This document shows positions 7,858 through 23,224 of a stretch of DNA of 32,059 bases, one piece after another (the first letter of the stretch is position 1; each line of letters starts with the position of its first letter). The DNA lies in contig JAQBNI010000003.1 in assembly GCA_028288625.1 (NCBI GenBank), positions 1-32,059 of the forward strand, in the 5' to 3' direction. The position numbers were made by a program, and so were the translations under genes. Under the pieces are notes generated by a model. It was not told the DNA's origin. It saw only the letters and a list, made by a program, of their open reading frames with translations, and did not search any database. Source of the DNA: Bacteroidota bacterium. Its GTDB lineage: Bacteria; Bacteroidota; Bacteroidia; Chitinophagales; JADIYW01.

Positions 7858-8430
7858 TTAGAGGTCAGCCGTTTCTAAAGTACGATGATCTAAAATATGA
7901 GGGTATTTGCGTGATACATATTCATAAATTCCAAACAATACCGTAACGAAAAAAGCATCGCCCAGCAACGTATATTTAAAGAATGGGACTGCCATCGCAA
8001 AACATTTTGTAAAGCCTGCCGCATCCATGCTATATAACCCTCCGAAAAGCCACACGCCTATATTTGTGATCACAAAAAATAAAATGGAAGAAACCAGGGT
8101 AAACACTGCTGTTTTTCCAAAATTTAATTTGTCTCCTTGTAAATTTCTACCTAAAAATATGATGAGCAATATAGAGCCGTAGACAAAAAATATAGTGTCG
8201 TGAAACAGCGTATAATGATTCATCACGGATAATAAAATATCGCTTATAAACATGGAAATAACAGGGATTAATATCGCCCATTTTTTATCTCGGAATTTTG
8301 CCCCTGCAAACAACGAAATAGCAACTACCGGAGTAAAATTAAAAGGATGTGGAATGATCCTGAAAATAACCGCAACAGCAATCAGCGCAGTGATCAACAG
8401 GAATTTTGAGTTTGTCTTTAAAGTTTCCAT
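7858..8430 (-). CDS. Small integral membrane protein, DUF6580-like putative transporter
   Basis: This 190-residue protein has five to six hydrophobic helices. The opening is KFLLITALIAVAVIFRIIPHPFNFTPVVAISLFAGAKF, then WAILIPVISMFISDILL, the FVYGSILLIIFLG helix, FGKTAVFTLVSSILFFVITNIGVWLF, and a last VPFFKYTLLGDAFFVTVLFGIYEYV. The Arg-Ile-Ile-Pro-His-Pro-x-Asn-Phe-x-Pro motif and the size match what I recall as the DUF6580 family of putative transport proteins, which resemble ECF transporter substrate-binding subunits. It ends the B12 block, 46 nt after the Nudix gene, but has its own -7 box. A role in inner-membrane vitamin uptake is a guess from context. The C-terminus ends in a short hydrophilic tail. 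Confidence 0.7.
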   Translation of the reverse strand: METLKTNSKFLLITALIAVAVIFRIIPHPFNFTPVVAISLFAGAKFRDKKWAILIPVISMFISDILLSVMNHYTLFHDTIFFVYGSILLIIFLGRNLQGDKLNFGKTAVFTLVSSILFFVITNIGVWLFGGLYSMDAAGFTKCFAMAVPFFKYTLLGDAFFVTVLFGIYEYVSRKYPHILDHRTLETADL

Positions 8431-8476: not shown

Positions 8477-9016
8477 TTATTTTTCAGGGAATGAGCCGTA
8501 ATGTGTATTGCATGTTCCTCCTTTCCTGTCTTCAAAAAATTTACGCAGGGCGAAAGCAGAAGAAGTAAATGCAAGTTCTTTCCACGGAATTTCTTCTTCT
8601 GCAAATAACGCGGATTCGATACTCTCCTCCCCATTTCGAATGATACCGTCTTTTAGCTTTGCCAGGAAATGAATATATACCTGGTTTGCCTGAGGAAGAT
8701 TGTAGACTGTCAGCACATTTTGGATTTCTATTTCTGCTCCGGCTTCTTCCCATGTTTCTCTTATTGCACCGTCTTCCGTTTTTTCAAAATCCTCGAGGTA
8801 ACCCGCAGGTAAATTCCAATAACCTCTTCTAGGCTCTATTGCCCTGCGGCACAACAAAACTTTATCTTCCCACACACACAAAGCGCCCACTACAATTTTA
8901 GGATTCGTGTAATGAATGGTATTACAAGATTCGCAGACAAACCTGTCCCTGCCTTCTGTAAATTTAAATACGACAGTATTTCCGCAATTGCTGCAATATT
9001 TCAGCTGGTGAATCAT
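8477..9016 (-). CDS. Nudix hydrolase with N-terminal zinc ribbon
   Basis: A 179-residue protein with a zinc ribbon (Cys8, Cys11, Cys28, Cys31 as YCSNCG...FVCESC) followed by a Nudix fold. The Nudix box is complete: Gly72-x5-Glu78-x7-Arg86-Glu87-x2-Glu90-Glu91-x-Gly93. The strand before it, IVVGALCVWEDKVLLCRRAIEPRRGYWNLPAG, is typical of ADP-ribose or NADH-type Nudix enzymes with a leading zinc ribbon. It hydrolyses a nucleoside diphosphate linked to another group; the substrate is unknown. It sits 45 nt after the frameshifted gene and 46 nt before the membrane protein, all leftward. A near-consensus TATTTTTA just upstream of the ATG could give it a promoter separate from the B12 riboswitch. 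Confidence 0.88.
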   Translation of the reverse strand: MIHQLKYCSNCGNTVVFKFTEGRDRFVCESCNTIHYTNPKIVVGALCVWEDKVLLCRRAIEPRRGYWNLPAGYLEDFEKTEDGAIRETWEEAGAEIEIQNVLTVYNLPQANQVYIHFLAKLKDGIIRNGEESIESALFAEEEIPWKELAFTSSAFALRKFFEDRKGGTCNTHYGSFPEK

Positions 9017-9061
9017 GCTTAAAAATAAGAAAGCTTTTTCAAGATAAAAATTTATAAATCA

Positions 9062-9683
9062 TCATTTAAAGACAAAACAACCGTACCCGAGATAACCATA
9101 TATTTCGCCGAAAGAATAATTTGTCTTTCCATAGGCAATTATACCCAATGGCTTTACATTTGTTACCTTGTATTTTGCATGTCAAGTGACACTACCACTT
9201 TGAAATATTGATTCTTAAAATCTACCCGCATATAGGTTTCGCCCCGTTTTACATACTCCTGGAACTCTGCATCAGAATATTCTCTAAGGAAATTAGTTGG
9301 ATAATAAAAAATGCTATCCGCTTTAGTTTTTCATATTGTATAGATGGATCATAATAGGAATAAAAAACTGCCTTATCGTTTCTGACCATGTCTATTAAAG
9401 TATTCATGCTGAAAAGACTGTCATTATCGTGAATATATTTCAGTATTGTTAGCGAGTCTTCTCCGTCGGATAAATAATTTGTTGAACCTGAATTGAGAAT
9501 CGGGTTGATGCCCTGCGCATACGTTCCTATAAAGTGACTGATAAAAGCAATATTTTTTTCTGAAGGATTTTGTGCCTCCATCAGCTTCAAAAAATAAATG
9601 TTCGCGGAGTCATTAAAAAAATACTGTCCGTAACTATACGAATGCAGCTTACACAGTAATATGATGAAAAATAATTTTCTCAC
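9062..9683 (-). pseudogene. Secreted protein gene with two -1 frameshifts
   Basis: From a GTG at 9683, the frame encodes a Sec signal peptide (VRKLFFIILLCKLHSYSYGQ) and a mature acidic domain down to QYEKLKR, then drifts into nonsense and stops at 9249. Restoring one A in the A5 run at 9327-9331 moves the reading to ADSIFYYPTNFLREYSDAEF and on to RVDFKNQYFKVVVSLDMQ. Restoring one A in the A4 run near 9173-9176 continues it as KYKVTNVKPLGIIAYG up to GYGCFVFK and a TGA at 9062-9064. The repaired product is ~207 residues with no other stop. The family is not recognised. It lies 40 nt after the BtuG-like gene in the riboswitch-controlled block. Either a recently inactivated gene or two assembly errors fits. 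Confidence 0.75.
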
Positions 9684-9723
9684 GTGATTAAAAATAAGAA
9701 ATTTATCAAGTGTAAAATCAGTT

Positions 9724-10806
9724 CTACAGGTTAAAGTACACAGAATTAGGAATAATCCCAACCTTAAACGAATCTATTACCTGCGCATTTGAATTATAGC
9801 GAATGATCTTTCCCGCTTCATTGAAATTACCTGCATCTAAACCCCAGATCTCGCCGGTATACGGATGCACATCCAATCCATAAAATAAACGCGTAATAAT
9901 GGGCGTTGAAGGCAGTGCAACTGCGGTGATAGGCATTGTATACACTTTATCATCCAGGCAAACAAAAAGCTTGCTGCCATCTCCGCTCATTGCAAGATTA
10001 TCTGCAGCGCTGTAATCATTGTTAGCTGCAATGATCTGTATTTGCCTGTCAATAGTATTTGTAGAAGGATTAATGCGAACAAGTGAAGCTGCGCTGTTTC
10101 GGTGTGGAGCATATGTTGGTGGATCATAGGATACATAGCCCTTACACAATACCCATATAAATCCTTGGGCATCTTTTTCCATTTCAGTCGGTACATCCTG
10201 CACGTTGATCTTGCTGAGTTCAACATCCGTATTTGCATCAATTACACTGATGGTATGATCATTACCATAACCACCGCTGTTTGCCACATACACCTTACTG
10301 TTGATCTGCAACATTTCTTCCGGACCGTTTCCTACATTGATCTTTTTTGCAACCGTAAAATTATTCATGTTTATCACCAGCACTTGTCCTGCTCCGCTGC
10401 CATTCGTTACATATACCTTGTCTGTTGTAATACCTAACGCATAGCGCGGGTAATCCGTACCATCTGTTAAGGTTGCGACCTCTTTAAAAGTCCGCGAATC
10501 AACAACTACAACCTTCTGAGAATTATTTGCACAAATAATCCCGAAATTCCCAATGCGTGTAAATGATTGCAAAACATCACCTGTGCTCTGCCCGTTATTC
10601 GCCTGCTCAAAAATATTATTGACGACTTCGTTATTATGTGAGATGTACGAAATACTGCCGTTGTTCTTGGTATATCCGCCTTCATTTACGATTAATGCGG
10701 AGCCTGTCTCAATGTAAGTATCCACCTTGGTTGTATTGTTTACCTTCTGACAGGAAAGAACAAACACTGCAATGGTAATTACTGAAAATTTTAAATAAGT
10801 TTTCAT
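9724..10806 (-). CDS. BtuG-like surface beta-propeller lipoprotein (B12 capture)
   Basis: A 360-residue lipoprotein: the signal peptide ends FVLSC with lipid-anchor Cys19. The mature part is a YncE/DUF5074-type beta-propeller. Repeating blades include FGIICANNSQKVVVVDSRTFKEVATL, PRYALGITTDKVYVTNG, QVLVINMNNFTVAKKINVG and PEEMLQINSKVYVANSGG, ending GKIIRYNSNAQVIDSFKVG. In Bacteroides, BtuG proteins of this fold sit on BtuB as a lid and bind cobalamin very tightly. Here the gene overlaps the upstream btuB-like stop in an ATGA arrangement, so the two are translationally coupled, and the riboswitch upstream points to the same ligand. Cobalamin binding is therefore a strong inference, not seen directly. 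Identity to characterised BtuG cannot be measured here. Confidence 0.85.
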   Translation of the reverse strand: MKTYLKFSVITIAVFVLSCQKVNNTTKVDTYIETGSALIVNEGGYTKNNGSISYISHNNEVVNNIFEQANNGQSTGDVLQSFTRIGNFGIICANNSQKVVVVDSRTFKEVATLTDGTDYPRYALGITTDKVYVTNGSGAGQVLVINMNNFTVAKKINVGNGPEEMLQINSKVYVANSGGYGNDHTISVIDANTDVELSKINVQDVPTEMEKDAQGFIWVLCKGYVSYDPPTYAPHRNSAASLVRINPSTNTIDRQIQIIAANNDYSAADNLAMSGDGSKLFVCLDDKVYTMPITAVALPSTPIITRLFYGLDVHPYTGEIWGLDAGNFNEAGKIIRYNSNAQVIDSFKVGIIPNSVYFNL

Positions 10807-12740
10807 AATGAATTATTTTGAAGTTTAGAAAAATTATAAATGAATGAAAAAGTGTAATAACGTTTAGGTTGGGCATACGAACGGATAGATTCATACGCAG
10901 TGTTGGTCACGTTGTTGATCTTAAAAATAAATTGAAGATGATGTTCTTTGATATCTGCTTTGAATGTGAGAAACATATCCAGTAAATGATAAGACTTCAG
11001 CGCGAAATACGCGAAATTTTCTTCGTCAGTAAAACGCCGGCTGATATACTGATAATTGATTCCTAATCCCAAAGAATAAATTTCAACATACATATTGGAT
11101 TTAAAAGTATGCTGTGGTTTATATCGGAGATAATGCCCTTTCAGATCAGCATTATTTTCATCTTGTATAATTTGTACACGATTAAAATTGTATATCTCAT
11201 TTACGGAAAATACTAAGTTTTTTGCAGCATAACTATAGGCAAGTTGTGATTCAATTCCGTATAACCTGGTAGATTTTAAATTCTTTGGTGACCAGATAAT
11301 GTTAGTGATTGGAGTCCATACAATATTGTTCTTGATCTTTGAATAATAGATGTTTACAACTGCGTTTAAATGATGTTTTGGATGATCAGGAAAAACATCT
11401 ATCGTATTTCCAAGATTTACAGTCCAACCCGTTTCCGGTTTTAAATAAGGATTGCCGCCCGGCGACCAATACCTGTCGTTCTGATCCGGATAACGGTATT
11501 TATCACTATATGAGAAAAGAACAGTATATTTTTTATTTGTCAGCATATATCCTGCATCAACATAAAACTGCGGACGGATATATTTAAAGGAAGAAAATGG
11601 TTGTGCGATCCGTAAAGAACCCTGCAAATCACCTTGTTTTATGCTGATATTAGAAGACGCTTCTCCCACATGATCTATCACTTTTCCGGCATATTCTTTA
11701 ACGTCCGCAATTAATAAATTGTAAGTATACCCGGTAGTTAATTTAAGCCGATGAGCAAAAGTATTCTCAACATAAAAAGTATTTGAAAGCCTGTGTGTAT
11801 TATACCCTGAATTGATCAGTAATACGGTATCGGTCGGACGTTTTTTATCTGTGTATTTTAAAACATCATAAGAATGAGCCAATGAAATATGGTAGCTGAT
11901 CTTTTCTCCATATTTATCTACGTTAATAAAATGCCGTATAGTTGCGTCTTTCTGAAATTTATTACTTGCTTCATAGCTTCCCATAATAGAAGGAATATTT
12001 TTTTGCTTTAACTGCAGCCAGCTTCCGATAGAAATCATCACCTGATCTTTCAATTGAATAAAAATACTGTTCACTGTTCCTTCATTTTTTATTTCATTGT
12101 GATTCGCAGTATCCGTGGGATGATTAAATTTATAGTTGTCGGTATAGAGGAAATTATTTTTTGCGATCAGAGAAAAGGTGTTGGATTGAAATTGTACTTT
12201 TTTATTGCCTGCAGTAAAGCCCACATTATTCCTGTAAGTTTCAAAGCTGCCGATATCGCTTCGCACATGCAACGAAAATTTCTTATTCCAATCCGGTTTT
12301 GAATTGATGGTAATATCGCCGCCGAGAGAAGAAGTATTTGTATGGATAGTGATCTCTTCACCTGATTCTATAGGGATCAGCGAAACATCGGTGCCGCCTA
12401 GCGGAGCGGAATTTATTTTCAATCCATTCCAGTAAACATTGGTGTGATCATCATTTCCACCACGTATAGAAATGGAAGCAATATTGCCGGGACCATAAGA
12501 ATTGATCTGTACAGGAGTGGTTGACTGCAGAAGATCCGCAAGATCATTTTGTGATGAAAATCTTTTTTGTAATGGCGTAATAGAAAATGTGGAAGAATTT
12601 GTTTGCCTGTTCACAGGATGATCGGTAATGCTTACTGTATCGATTTGTTGAATAGCAATCAACCCTTGCTGTGCAAAATTGTTTTTTGCCTGAATGGCAA
12701 TAAACACTAACAGTAGTATGTAATTAATTTTTAATCGCAT
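10803..12740 (-). CDS. btuB: BtuB-like TonB-dependent outer-membrane cobalamin receptor
   Basis: A 645-residue outer-membrane receptor. A signal peptide (MRLKINYILLLVFIAIQA...) is followed by a short N-terminal region and a plug domain (residues ~50-140). The plug contains LADLLQSTTPVQINSYGPGNIASISIRGG, then NVYWNGLKINSAPLGGTDVSLIP and EITIHTNTSSLGGDITI. A beta-barrel with alternating aromatic strands ends in YYTFSFIYNF plus eight residues. There is no carboxypeptidase-like N-terminal extension, so it is BtuB-sized, not SusC-sized. The ligand is inferred from the cobalamin riboswitch 40 nt upstream and the coupled BtuG-like gene downstream. Uptake would need TonB-ExbBD and an inner-membrane importer; no BtuFCD genes are in the window. 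Confidence 0.9.
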   Translation of the reverse strand: MRLKINYILLLVFIAIQAKNNFAQQGLIAIQQIDTVSITDHPVNRQTNSSTFSITPLQKRFSSQNDLADLLQSTTPVQINSYGPGNIASISIRGGNDDHTNVYWNGLKINSAPLGGTDVSLIPIESGEEITIHTNTSSLGGDITINSKPDWNKKFSLHVRSDIGSFETYRNNVGFTAGNKKVQFQSNTFSLIAKNNFLYTDNYKFNHPTDTANHNEIKNEGTVNSIFIQLKDQVMISIGSWLQLKQKNIPSIMGSYEASNKFQKDATIRHFINVDKYGEKISYHISLAHSYDVLKYTDKKRPTDTVLLINSGYNTHRLSNTFYVENTFAHRLKLTTGYTYNLLIADVKEYAGKVIDHVGEASSNISIKQGDLQGSLRIAQPFSSFKYIRPQFYVDAGYMLTNKKYTVLFSYSDKYRYPDQNDRYWSPGGNPYLKPETGWTVNLGNTIDVFPDHPKHHLNAVVNIYYSKIKNNIVWTPITNIIWSPKNLKSTRLYGIESQLAYSYAAKNLVFSVNEIYNFNRVQIIQDENNADLKGHYLRYKPQHTFKSNMYVEIYSLGLGINYQYISRRFTDEENFAYFALKSYHLLDMFLTFKADIKEHHLQFIFKINNVTNTAYESIRSYAQPKRYYTFSFIYNFSKLQNNSL

Positions 12741-12778
12741 ATACCTGAAATGTTTCCTCAGAACATTTTTAAGTGTGT

Positions 12779-12940
12779 TGAACCCGGCAGGTCTTCTGAC
12801 TTACACTTTGCTGAAACCTTCCCGCCCGGATCGGACAGTGGTTGTAGCGTTCAGCAATCTAAAGTGCTTACAGCAGCTGGGACTGTACAGGTATCTCACC
12901 TGTTTCCCTTTTAATCGCAGTATTGAAACTGCAAACCAAA
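12779..12940 (-). ncRNA. Cobalamin (B12) riboswitch
   Basis: Read on the minus strand, the 5' part is AAAAGGGAAACAGGTGAGA, then CTGTACAGTCCCAGCTGCTG, TAAGCACTTTAGATTGCTGA and CGCTACAACCACTGTCCGAT. The 3' part carries GGGCGGGAAGG and the B12 box AGTCAGAAGACCTGCC (12786-12801). These match the conserved core of adenosylcobalamin riboswitches in order and spacing. It ends about 40 nt before the btuB-like ATG with no separate terminator hairpin and T-run. Control is thus probably at translation initiation, with B12 binding hiding the start region. Only the 5' limit is approximate. This switch should control btuB and, through ATGA coupling, the BtuG-like gene. Confidence 0.95.
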
Positions 12941-13048
12941 TTCTAATGTAAAAGTAAAATTATTTTTGGAATTACAAACTAAGATTGGGATTAAATAATT
13001 CCTGAACTTTCTTTAATGTCGATTGTTGAATACATCTCAATGCTTTTT

Positions 13049-14762: not shown

Positions 14763-15344
14763 TCAATGCATTCTATCGCCTCTTAATTCCATTTCATTTA
14801 AAATTTTTGTTTCATAATTCACCCATTCATCCCATCGTCTTTTCACTTTATTTTTATCGCAATACTGTTCAGCAATATTTATAAACAGCCTGTAATGATT
14901 AGCTTCTGCAATCATAAGCTTGTGATAAAACTGCTTCAACCCTTCATCATTTATCTGCAAAGATAACAAGCGAAATCGCTCACAGCTTCTCGCTTCAATT
15001 AATGCTGCCATTAAAATTCTATCCAGAAATCTTCCTTCTTCACTTCCACCTTTTACGAAAAATTGTTTTAATAACATTGCATATTCATCCTTTCTCTGTC
15101 CGCCTAATTTAAGACTGCGTTTCTTCAATTCTTCCAAAACCATTCTGAAATGCGTCCATTCCTCGTTTACCACAGGCGCTAATTTATCGACTAAATATTC
15201 ACGATCGGGATATAATTGTATCAAACCGATACACGTTGATGCAGCCTTTTGCTCGCAATATGCATGGTCGGTGAGGATGTCTGCAATAGATCTTTGCGCT
15301 AAGTTTACCCAACCCGGATCAGTAGCTAATTTCAATCCCAACAT
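14763..15344 (-). CDS. miaE: tRNA-(ms2io6A)-hydroxylase MiaE
   Basis: This 193-residue ferritin-like diiron enzyme hydroxylates ms2i6A at tRNA position 37, using O2. The carboxylate/histidine metal ligands are visible as Glu31 (HAYCEQK), Glu62-x2-His65 (NEEWTH), Glu117 (EARSCERF) and Glu147-x2-His150 (EANHYRLF), in the E-ExxH-E-ExxH order of the family. The N-terminal KLATDPGWVNLA and the VVNEEWTHFRMVLEEL and GRFLDRILMAALIEARSCERF segments are characteristic. Length is normal. The ATG is preceded by a TATTTTTG promoter element and an AGG. It leads a probable miaE-hemF operon. Confidence 0.95.
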   Translation of the reverse strand: MLGLKLATDPGWVNLAQRSIADILTDHAYCEQKAASTCIGLIQLYPDREYLVDKLAPVVNEEWTHFRMVLEELKKRSLKLGGQRKDEYAMLLKQFFVKGGSEEGRFLDRILMAALIEARSCERFRLLSLQINDEGLKQFYHKLMIAEANHYRLFINIAEQYCDKNKVKRRWDEWVNYETKILNEMELRGDRMH

Positions 15345-18102: not shown

Positions 18103-19302
18103 ATGAAAAAACGAGTGGTCGTTGGCATGTCGGGTGGAGTGGATTCGAGCGTTGCTGCTTATCTTCTGCAACAGCAGGGGTATGAAGTGATCGGATTATT
18201 CATGAAGAACTGGCATGACGGAAGTGTAACTATCCAGGGAGATTGTCCCTGGATAGAGGATAGTAACGATGCATTAATGGTAGCGCAAAAACTCGGCATT
18301 CCTTTTCAAACTCTAGATCTTAGCGAGGAATACAAGGAGCGCATTGTAGATTATATGTTTGCCGAATATGAAGCCGGGAGAACGCCCAACCCGGATGTCC
18401 TTTGCAACCGTGAAATTAAGTTTGATGTTTTTTTAAAGCATGCTGTTGAATTAGGCGCCGATTTTATTGGTACGGGACATTATTGCAGAGTAGATGCGCA
18501 CAGCGGTGCGTATCCACATGCACATCCAATATATCGACTGTTAGCAGGAAAAGATACAAATAAAGATCAGAGTTATTTTTTATGCCAGCTCAACCAGGAG
18601 CAATTGAGTAAAGCCCTCTTCCCTATCGGGGAATTAACCAAGCCCGAAGTGCGAAAGATCGCAAAGAAACTCGATCTCATCACTGCAGAAAAAAAAGATT
18701 CACAGGGATTGTGTTTTATTGGCAAAGTACGTCTTCCGGAATTTTTGCAGCAGCAGTTGCTTCCAAAAAAAGGAAATGTTGTGTTGATCCCAAATGAAAA
18801 TGTACCAGAGAAGATCGCTAACGATTTTGAAAATTGTTCGCCTGAACAATTGAAAGAACTCTCAAAATCAAATCATTTTTCTGTTGAGGATGGAAAGATC
18901 ATCGGTGAACACAACGGAGCGCATTATTATACGATCGGTCAGCGCAAAGGGTTAGGCATTGGCGGCTTTAAAACGGGCTTGTTTGTGATCGCGACGGATA
19001 CGAAGGAAAATGTTATTTACCTCGGAGAAGGCGAAGAACATGGCGGATTGAACCGCCCGGGATTATTTATAAAGGATGAAGACATCCATTGGATACGTGA
19101 GGATCTTCAACTAAATATTGGTGAGAAAAAAAATTACATGGCGCGAATCCGCTACCGTCAGCCGCTGGAAGAATGTTGTCTTTACAAAGAAGAAAACGGG
19201 TTGTATATTATTTTCAAAAATCTGCAGCGGGGAATTACTCCAGGACAATTTGCAGCTTGGTATCACGAAGATGAATTGATTGGTTCTGGTGTGATTGCGT
19301 AG
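18103..19302 (+). CDS. mnmA: tRNA-specific 2-thiouridylase MnmA
   Basis: This 399-residue enzyme adds sulfur to U34 of Glu, Gln and Lys tRNAs in the cytoplasm, taking sulfur from a persulfide relay. The ATP PP-loop is SGGVDSS (10-16), and GLFMKNWHD follows. The two catalytic cysteines are Cys101 ([12 protein letters not shown]) and Cys204 (DSQGLCFIG). GTGHYCRV and [15 protein letters not shown] are family signatures, as is the C-terminal [13 protein letters not shown]. The stretch [27 protein letters not shown] looks like a small insertion within the central domain. Length is slightly above the ~360 residues usual for the family, consistent with that insertion. The ATG is set by the promoter element 4 nt upstream. 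The stop codon runs into a perfect hairpin. Confidence 0.97.
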
Positions 19303-22330: not shown

Positions 22331-23224
22331 TTAGCTTCGCAAATTATCAGGATAAATACCCTTTTCAATTTTATTTCTTATAGCATTAATTACAAGTTCT
22401 TTTTCTTCAGAGTAGGTTACACCGCACCAATCTTTTCCATCAGGCAATAATTTTACTTTTATTTTTCCTTCCGACATCATTTTGGAAACTACGGTCGGAA
22501 TTAAAAATTCCGCCTTCATTTCATTGCGGTTCTTTGTGTAAAATTCCTGCCATTGTTTTTCCAGCTCATCAAAAAGGAAGCAGGAAAATCCCCAGAAATT
22601 CATCGAAGCAAAACTTTCTTCATCAATCGTTGTAAACGATCCGTCTTCATTTTCATTTTGCAAAACACTATCGCGCCGATCTATTTTTGTCATCTCTGTA
22701 ATAGAAACCAGTTCGTTGTTTTCATTTAAAGTGCAAACACCGCGTGATACTGTTCCGATATCGGATAAAGTATTTTTTAAAGGATATCCTACGAGCGAAA
22801 ATACAGGCTCATCAATTTCAAGCTGTGATAAAAAATTCTGAATAGAGATATAAGCTTCTCTACCATAAAAATCATCTGCATTAATTACCGCAAAAGCATT
22901 CTTAATCAAATCCTTTGTTGCAAGGATCGCCTGCCCCGTTCCCCATGGTTTTGTTCGCGAAGGATTTGCATCTGCAGGAGGCTGCTGCAATGCAAAACGG
23001 ATCTCTATCTTATCTTTCCATATTTCATCTACATGCTCCTGAAGATCATTTAAAAGATCCTGTCGCGTTATGACCACAACATCATTAAAACCAGCTTGTT
23101 GTGCGTCATAAATGGCGTAATCCATTAACCACTCACCGGACGGACCAAAGCCCTCCGCTTGTTTAACACCGCCATACCTGCTGCCAATCCCGGCAGCCAT
23201 AATTACTAAAGTTGTATTTTTCAT
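22331..23224 (-). CDS. Sugar-phosphate nucleotidyltransferase family protein
   Basis: A 297-residue NTP_transferase fold. The nucleotide-binding start is TLVIMAAGIGSRYGGVKQ, where the usual G-x-G-T/S-R is GIGSRYGG. DDFYGREAYISIQNFL supplies the metal-binding Asp in an INADDFYG motif. SLVGYPLKNTLSDIGTVSRGVC continues the catalytic domain, and NFWGFSCFLFDELEKQW and EFLIPTVVSKMMSEGKIKVKLLPD lie near the end. There is no left-handed beta-helix acetyltransferase domain. It would join a sugar-1-phosphate to UTP or dTTP; the sugar is unknown. It is first in a leftward unit with galK 14 nt downstream. A -7 box sits 4 nt before the ATG. Confidence 0.85.
   Translation of the reverse strand: MKNTTLVIMAAGIGSRYGGVKQAEGFGPSGEWLMDYAIYDAQQAGFNDVVVITRQDLLNDLQEHVDEIWKDKIEIRFALQQPPADANPSRTKPWGTGQAILATKDLIKNAFAVINADDFYGREAYISIQNFLSQLEIDEPVFSLVGYPLKNTLSDIGTVSRGVCTLNENNELVSITEMTKIDRRDSVLQNENEDGSFTTIDEESFASMNFWGFSCFLFDELEKQWQEFYTKNRNEMKAEFLIPTVVSKMMSEGKIKVKLLPDGKDWCGVTYSEEKELVINAIRNKIEKGIYPDNLRS

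Follow-up and report, generated by a model that had tools for sequence, protein, structure and literature searches.

A putative orphan gene, apparently interrupted twice, in a variable slot behind the btuB-btuG pair of a Bacteroidota bacterium

The accessory proteins of Bacteroides B12 loci are a diverse group (BtuH, BtuJ, BtuK and BtuL; PMC8941943, PMC12751083), and nearly all of the B12-uptake accessories known so far are lipoproteins (PMC12751083). The gene described here, called X in the following, resembles them in that it appears to encode a small exported protein beside btuB-btuG in a riboswitch-headed locus, but differs from them in that it has no lipobox that could be seen by eye, bears no credible similarity to PDB chains (best E 0.52), is not conserved with the locus, and is broken. 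A second likeness is that to species-specific (ORFan) pseudogenes in variable operon slots, since X was likewise found in a single genome, has no relatives and carries frame breaks in short runs, and since sister species fill the slot with different genes. It differs from such pseudogenes in that no intact copy is known, so that its decay cannot be dated.

The window, i.e. the whole stretch of 32,059 bases that was analyzed, is one entire contig of a 3.71-Mb Bacteroidota draft genome consisting of 161 contigs. The features on which the argument rests are:

12769..12955, minus strand: cobalamin riboswitch (RF00174, 104 bits)
10803..12740, minus strand: BtuB-like TonB-dependent receptor, overlapping btuG by 4 nt and matching the BtuB partners in solved BtuB-BtuG complexes
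9724..10806, minus strand: BtuG-like surface lipoprotein (PF16819, DUF5074 beta-propeller)
9688..9701, minus strand: TTTCTTATTTTTAA, similar to the Bacteroidota -7 box, directly before the start of X
9062..9683, minus strand: X, interrupted orphan gene, 207 codons with both frame changes bridged, starting at GTG 9683 and stopping at TGA 9064-9062
9331..9683, minus strand: segment 1 of X, in frame 0, whose N-terminus (MRKLFFIILLCKLHSYSYG) looks by eye like a plausible signal peptide
9252..9330, minus strand: interval for the first frame change, containing an A5 (9331-9327) and a T6 (9311-9306)
9166..9330, minus strand: segment 2 of X, in the second frame, open between TGA 9333 and TAA 9165
9166..9181, minus strand: interval for the second frame change, containing an A4 (9176-9173)
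9065..9181, minus strand: segment 3 of X, in the third frame, open between TGA 9184 and TGA 9064-9062
8477..9016, minus strand: nudix hydrolase with N-terminal zinc ribbon, conserved across the genus as the border of the slot on its right

As an earlier note on this DNA had described, X directly follows the BtuG-like gene of a riboswitch-headed locus. It lies on the same strand at a distance of 40 nt. The BtuG-like protein itself matches chains of solved BtuB-BtuG complexes such as 8p97_B (E 9e-33), and past X the gene order continues with the nudix hydrolase, a DUF6580 gene, glmM and holA.

Three reading frames and one possible protein

Read from the GTG at 9683, frame 0 of X comprises 144 open codons and ends with the TAA at 9251-9249. 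Two further open frames overlap in succession, and bridging the two frame changes joins all three into a single protein of 207 residues, just as the earlier note had outlined. The same note had placed the first change at the A5 at 9327-9331; this run does fit and is preferred by the codon scores by about 5 bits (30.9 bits compared to 25.6 bits for the T6), but the change may lie at any place within 9330-9252, where the T6 fits as well. For the second change just 16 nt come into question, and among them the A4 that had been proposed is the sole run of at least four. The longest homopolymers of X, namely A7 (9559-9553) and T7 (9621-9615), are both in register, and no inactivating change beyond the two frame breaks was seen.

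When codon scores trained on other genes were applied to each frame of X, all three segments proved gene-like in their own frame, as open wrong-frame windows scored equally high in 0 of 143 cases for segment 1, in 2.5% for segment 2 and in 6.1% for segment 3. When the 266-nt tail was shuffled 3000 times with its dinucleotides preserved and at most two -1 shifts permitted, its mosaic score was reached in just 4 cases, so that the mosaic past the first break resembles a gene more than 99.9% of the shuffles do. Among antisense strands of real genes, used as a control, 3.8% reached the score of the tail. The corresponding fraction of intergenic windows was 17%; as 12.5% of these windows are open over their full length, this control includes undetected real genes.

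These numbers bear directly on the simplest alternative, namely that X really encodes just the 144 residues of the ORF up to 9251 and that the open frames downstream are accidental. Frame 0 is indeed a normal ORF, the longer form has no support from homologs, and the match of the tail score by 17% of the intergenic windows would be in line with such an accident. On the other hand, frame 0 is coding-like only to about 9330 and slightly negative past that point; its codon score drops below zero from about 9341, and the score of the second frame becomes positive soon after. Moreover, the shuffles matched the tail as rarely as stated above. We hence consider this alternative quite unlikely. Since the tail mosaic beats the shuffles, and with the weaker controls taken into account, one interrupted gene is likelier than a chance tail, although the shortness of the tail and the intergenic fraction set limits to this reading. 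As in pseudogenes, the coding-like sequence carries on in another frame past the premature stop. X is probably one gene broken twice, in keeping with the earlier view of one disrupted gene, whose small product plausibly carries a signal peptide.

A different way to reconcile three frames with one protein would be programmed -1 frameshifting at both sites, by which the full protein would still be made. X shares with genes known for this mechanism, such as dnaX and the transposase genes of insertion sequences, that the changes are of the -1 type, as at classical slippery sites, and lie at A-rich positions, and a modest structure follows the second site (z = -1.66). It differs from them, however, in having two changes within a short gene and no conservation. 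Neither site reads as an X XXY YYZ heptamer in its zero frame (GAA AAA CTA, 9332-9325; CAA AAT ACA, 9178-9170), and the first site is not followed by any structure (z = +0.63). Programmed frameshifting is as such very unlikely. Runs of the A4 and A5 type are also too short for transcriptional slippage.

Decay of the gene or error in the sequence

If X is one gene, the two missing bases could still be homopolymer base-calling or assembly errors, with X being intact in the organism. The loss of one base from a run of A (or T) explains each break, and there is no further defect; since X carries no other inactivating change, either its decay is recent or the breaks are such errors. The runs affected are short (A4, and A5 or T6), whereas the longer A7 and T7 are in register. 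In addition, a survey in which 229 sister-species proteins were aligned to 729 kb of the genome, with alignments spanning about 225 kb of coding sequence, revealed no true frameshift in these 229 conserved genes. One frameshift had been flagged at the right (contig) end of the window, but this was an artefact caused by the start of a conserved gene on the antisense strand. Among conserved genes, the assembly is thus almost without frame errors.

Even at a rate of one event per 225 kb, two errors inside 0.6 kb would be very unlikely if errors are evenly spread, and such a pair would hardly be expected except where coverage is poor in this region. The earlier note had left it at "freshly inactivated or mis-assembled"; the low frameshift rate favours real inactivation over the second option, and sequence errors thus appear to be an unlikely explanation, albeit one to be reckoned with. 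We infer that the breaks lie in the living genome and that an intact ancestor of X existed.

Absent relatives and a variable slot

Using the bridged 207-residue protein as query, no match to X at a threshold of E 0.001 was found in 60 relatives, which include seven other members of the genus, and no credible homolog was found in 398 genomes of the order or in 395 genomes of the class (these samples partly overlap and together come to about 850 genomes within the class). Nothing was retrieved by exact-peptide scans across the genome contigs of 84,980 species and across viral contigs, or by tblastn against plasmids and phages, and X matched no entry of Pfam, NCBIfam or PHROGs. With no homolog of any sort in the genomes and contigs searched, there is also none that runs intact across the breaks, which keeps the pseudogene call inferential. 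The suggestion that related genomes might keep the gene therefore found no counterpart in relatives, order or class.

Several weak matches were inspected and taken as chance. These were a repeated match to residues 134-192 of X in ORFs of about 200 residues from one family, which are YceI-like by eye; a match in another order (E 5e-4) to what by eye is a GldD-type lipoprotein; and matches near residues 108-195 in unrelated ORFs of about 880 residues.

The far border of the slot behind btuB-btuG is formed by a run of nudix, DUF6580 and glmM genes that is conserved in the genus. Between btuG and this border, sister species carry the following genes:

L035:5641-5868, L036:6425-6625, L038:7666-7899: small Cys_rich_CWC (PF14375) protein, directly after btuG in three sister species
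L035:5960-7225, L036:6696-7961, L038:7949-9217, L039:5694-6962, L040:6655-7926: protein of about 421 residues, in five sister species

Both proteins are encoded in the slot of three sister species, whereas two others have the gene for the protein of about 421 residues and no called CWC gene. Of the remaining genus members, one has an empty slot and another carries a PAP2-like gene there in the opposite orientation. As its contents differ in this manner across the genus, the slot can be regarded as a site of gene turnover. X is present at btuB-btuG in none of the seven other genus members that have the homologous pair; their BtuG proteins are 45-73% identical, and their slot holds other genes or none. 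The 421-residue slot gene, in turn, is absent from the X-bearing genome altogether, and homology of X to its product in a sister species was rejected (hhalign probability 0.1). This product has a hydrophobic N-terminal segment and no Pfam match above the cut-off, and since distant family members carry its gene on contigs without btuG, its link to B12 is local to the genus. As a side observation, one family member has a btuB homolog that is apparently split into two ORFs of 514 and 84 aa (L044:5259-7135).

Taken together, we lean towards X being a lineage-specific orphan that encoded a small secreted protein and has since lost its function. X would have been acquired or born in the variable stretch that separates btuG from the nudix gene, and two single-base frame disruptions in short A/T runs would have abolished its function. 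A ribosome today would stop at 9251 and yield at most a truncated product of 144 residues.

Expression signals and the question of a role in B12 uptake

No terminator-like site was found in the 40-nt gap between btuG and X, so that read-through from the riboswitch operon into X is possible. X may also have had its own promoter, since the promoter-like TTTCTTATTTTTAA box, which is one base off the consensus, lies directly before the GTG; the mRNA of this putative promoter, for which the box is only suggestive, would start at or beside the start codon. Both here and in one sister species, TAnnTTTG, the -7 box of Bacteroidota, is enriched at a distance of 3-7 nt ahead of start codons, which suggests that many mRNAs have a very short leader or none. 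Shine-Dalgarno-like sequences are rare. An identical copy of the 14-mer is found at 9019-9032, directly before the ATG of the nudix gene and within a longer imperfect similarity, and the two copies may reflect either a shared promoter type or a duplication that stems from the arrival of X.

Independently of X, the TAnnTTTG box was also observed upstream of the window genes at 14763-15344, 18103-19302, 22331-23224 and 7858-8430, and genome-wide. The last of these, the DUF6580 gene (window 7858-8430), which in most members of the genus comes after the nudix gene, has a promoter-like site of its own, TTGACA-18-TATATT / TATATTTG.

The question arises whether X, for which the earlier note had suggested a possible accessory role in cobalamin uptake, is or was a protein that binds cobalamin or assists B12 uptake under control of the riboswitch. 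This idea overlaps with the other readings and draws on the position of X, 40 nt past btuG and on the same strand of a riboswitch-headed locus, as well as on the varied accessories of Bacteroidetes B12 loci (PMC8941943, PMC12751083). Against it stand the retention of X in 0 of 7 genus members with homologous btuB-btuG, the promoter-like box of its own, and the missing lipobox and PDB match already mentioned. An accessory role is from this perspective very unlikely and was not borne out by the homology search or by the slots of the genus. As a homolog of X was found in no genome searched, there is no conserved link to btuB/btuG, and its place beside the pair is probably a matter of neighbourhood rather than function. 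One could also speculate that X is intact in other strains and represents a new B12-scavenging accessory, either fast-evolving or of very narrow distribution and without known relatives, but we regard this as highly improbable.

Overall, X matters little as it stands, being probably an orphan gene that decays beside a conserved nutrient-uptake pair in a variable slot. Should an intact strain be found and the X protein bind B12, it would add just one more accessory to a group that is already diverse. For the present locus, X is a caution against inferring function from a neighbouring riboswitch alone.
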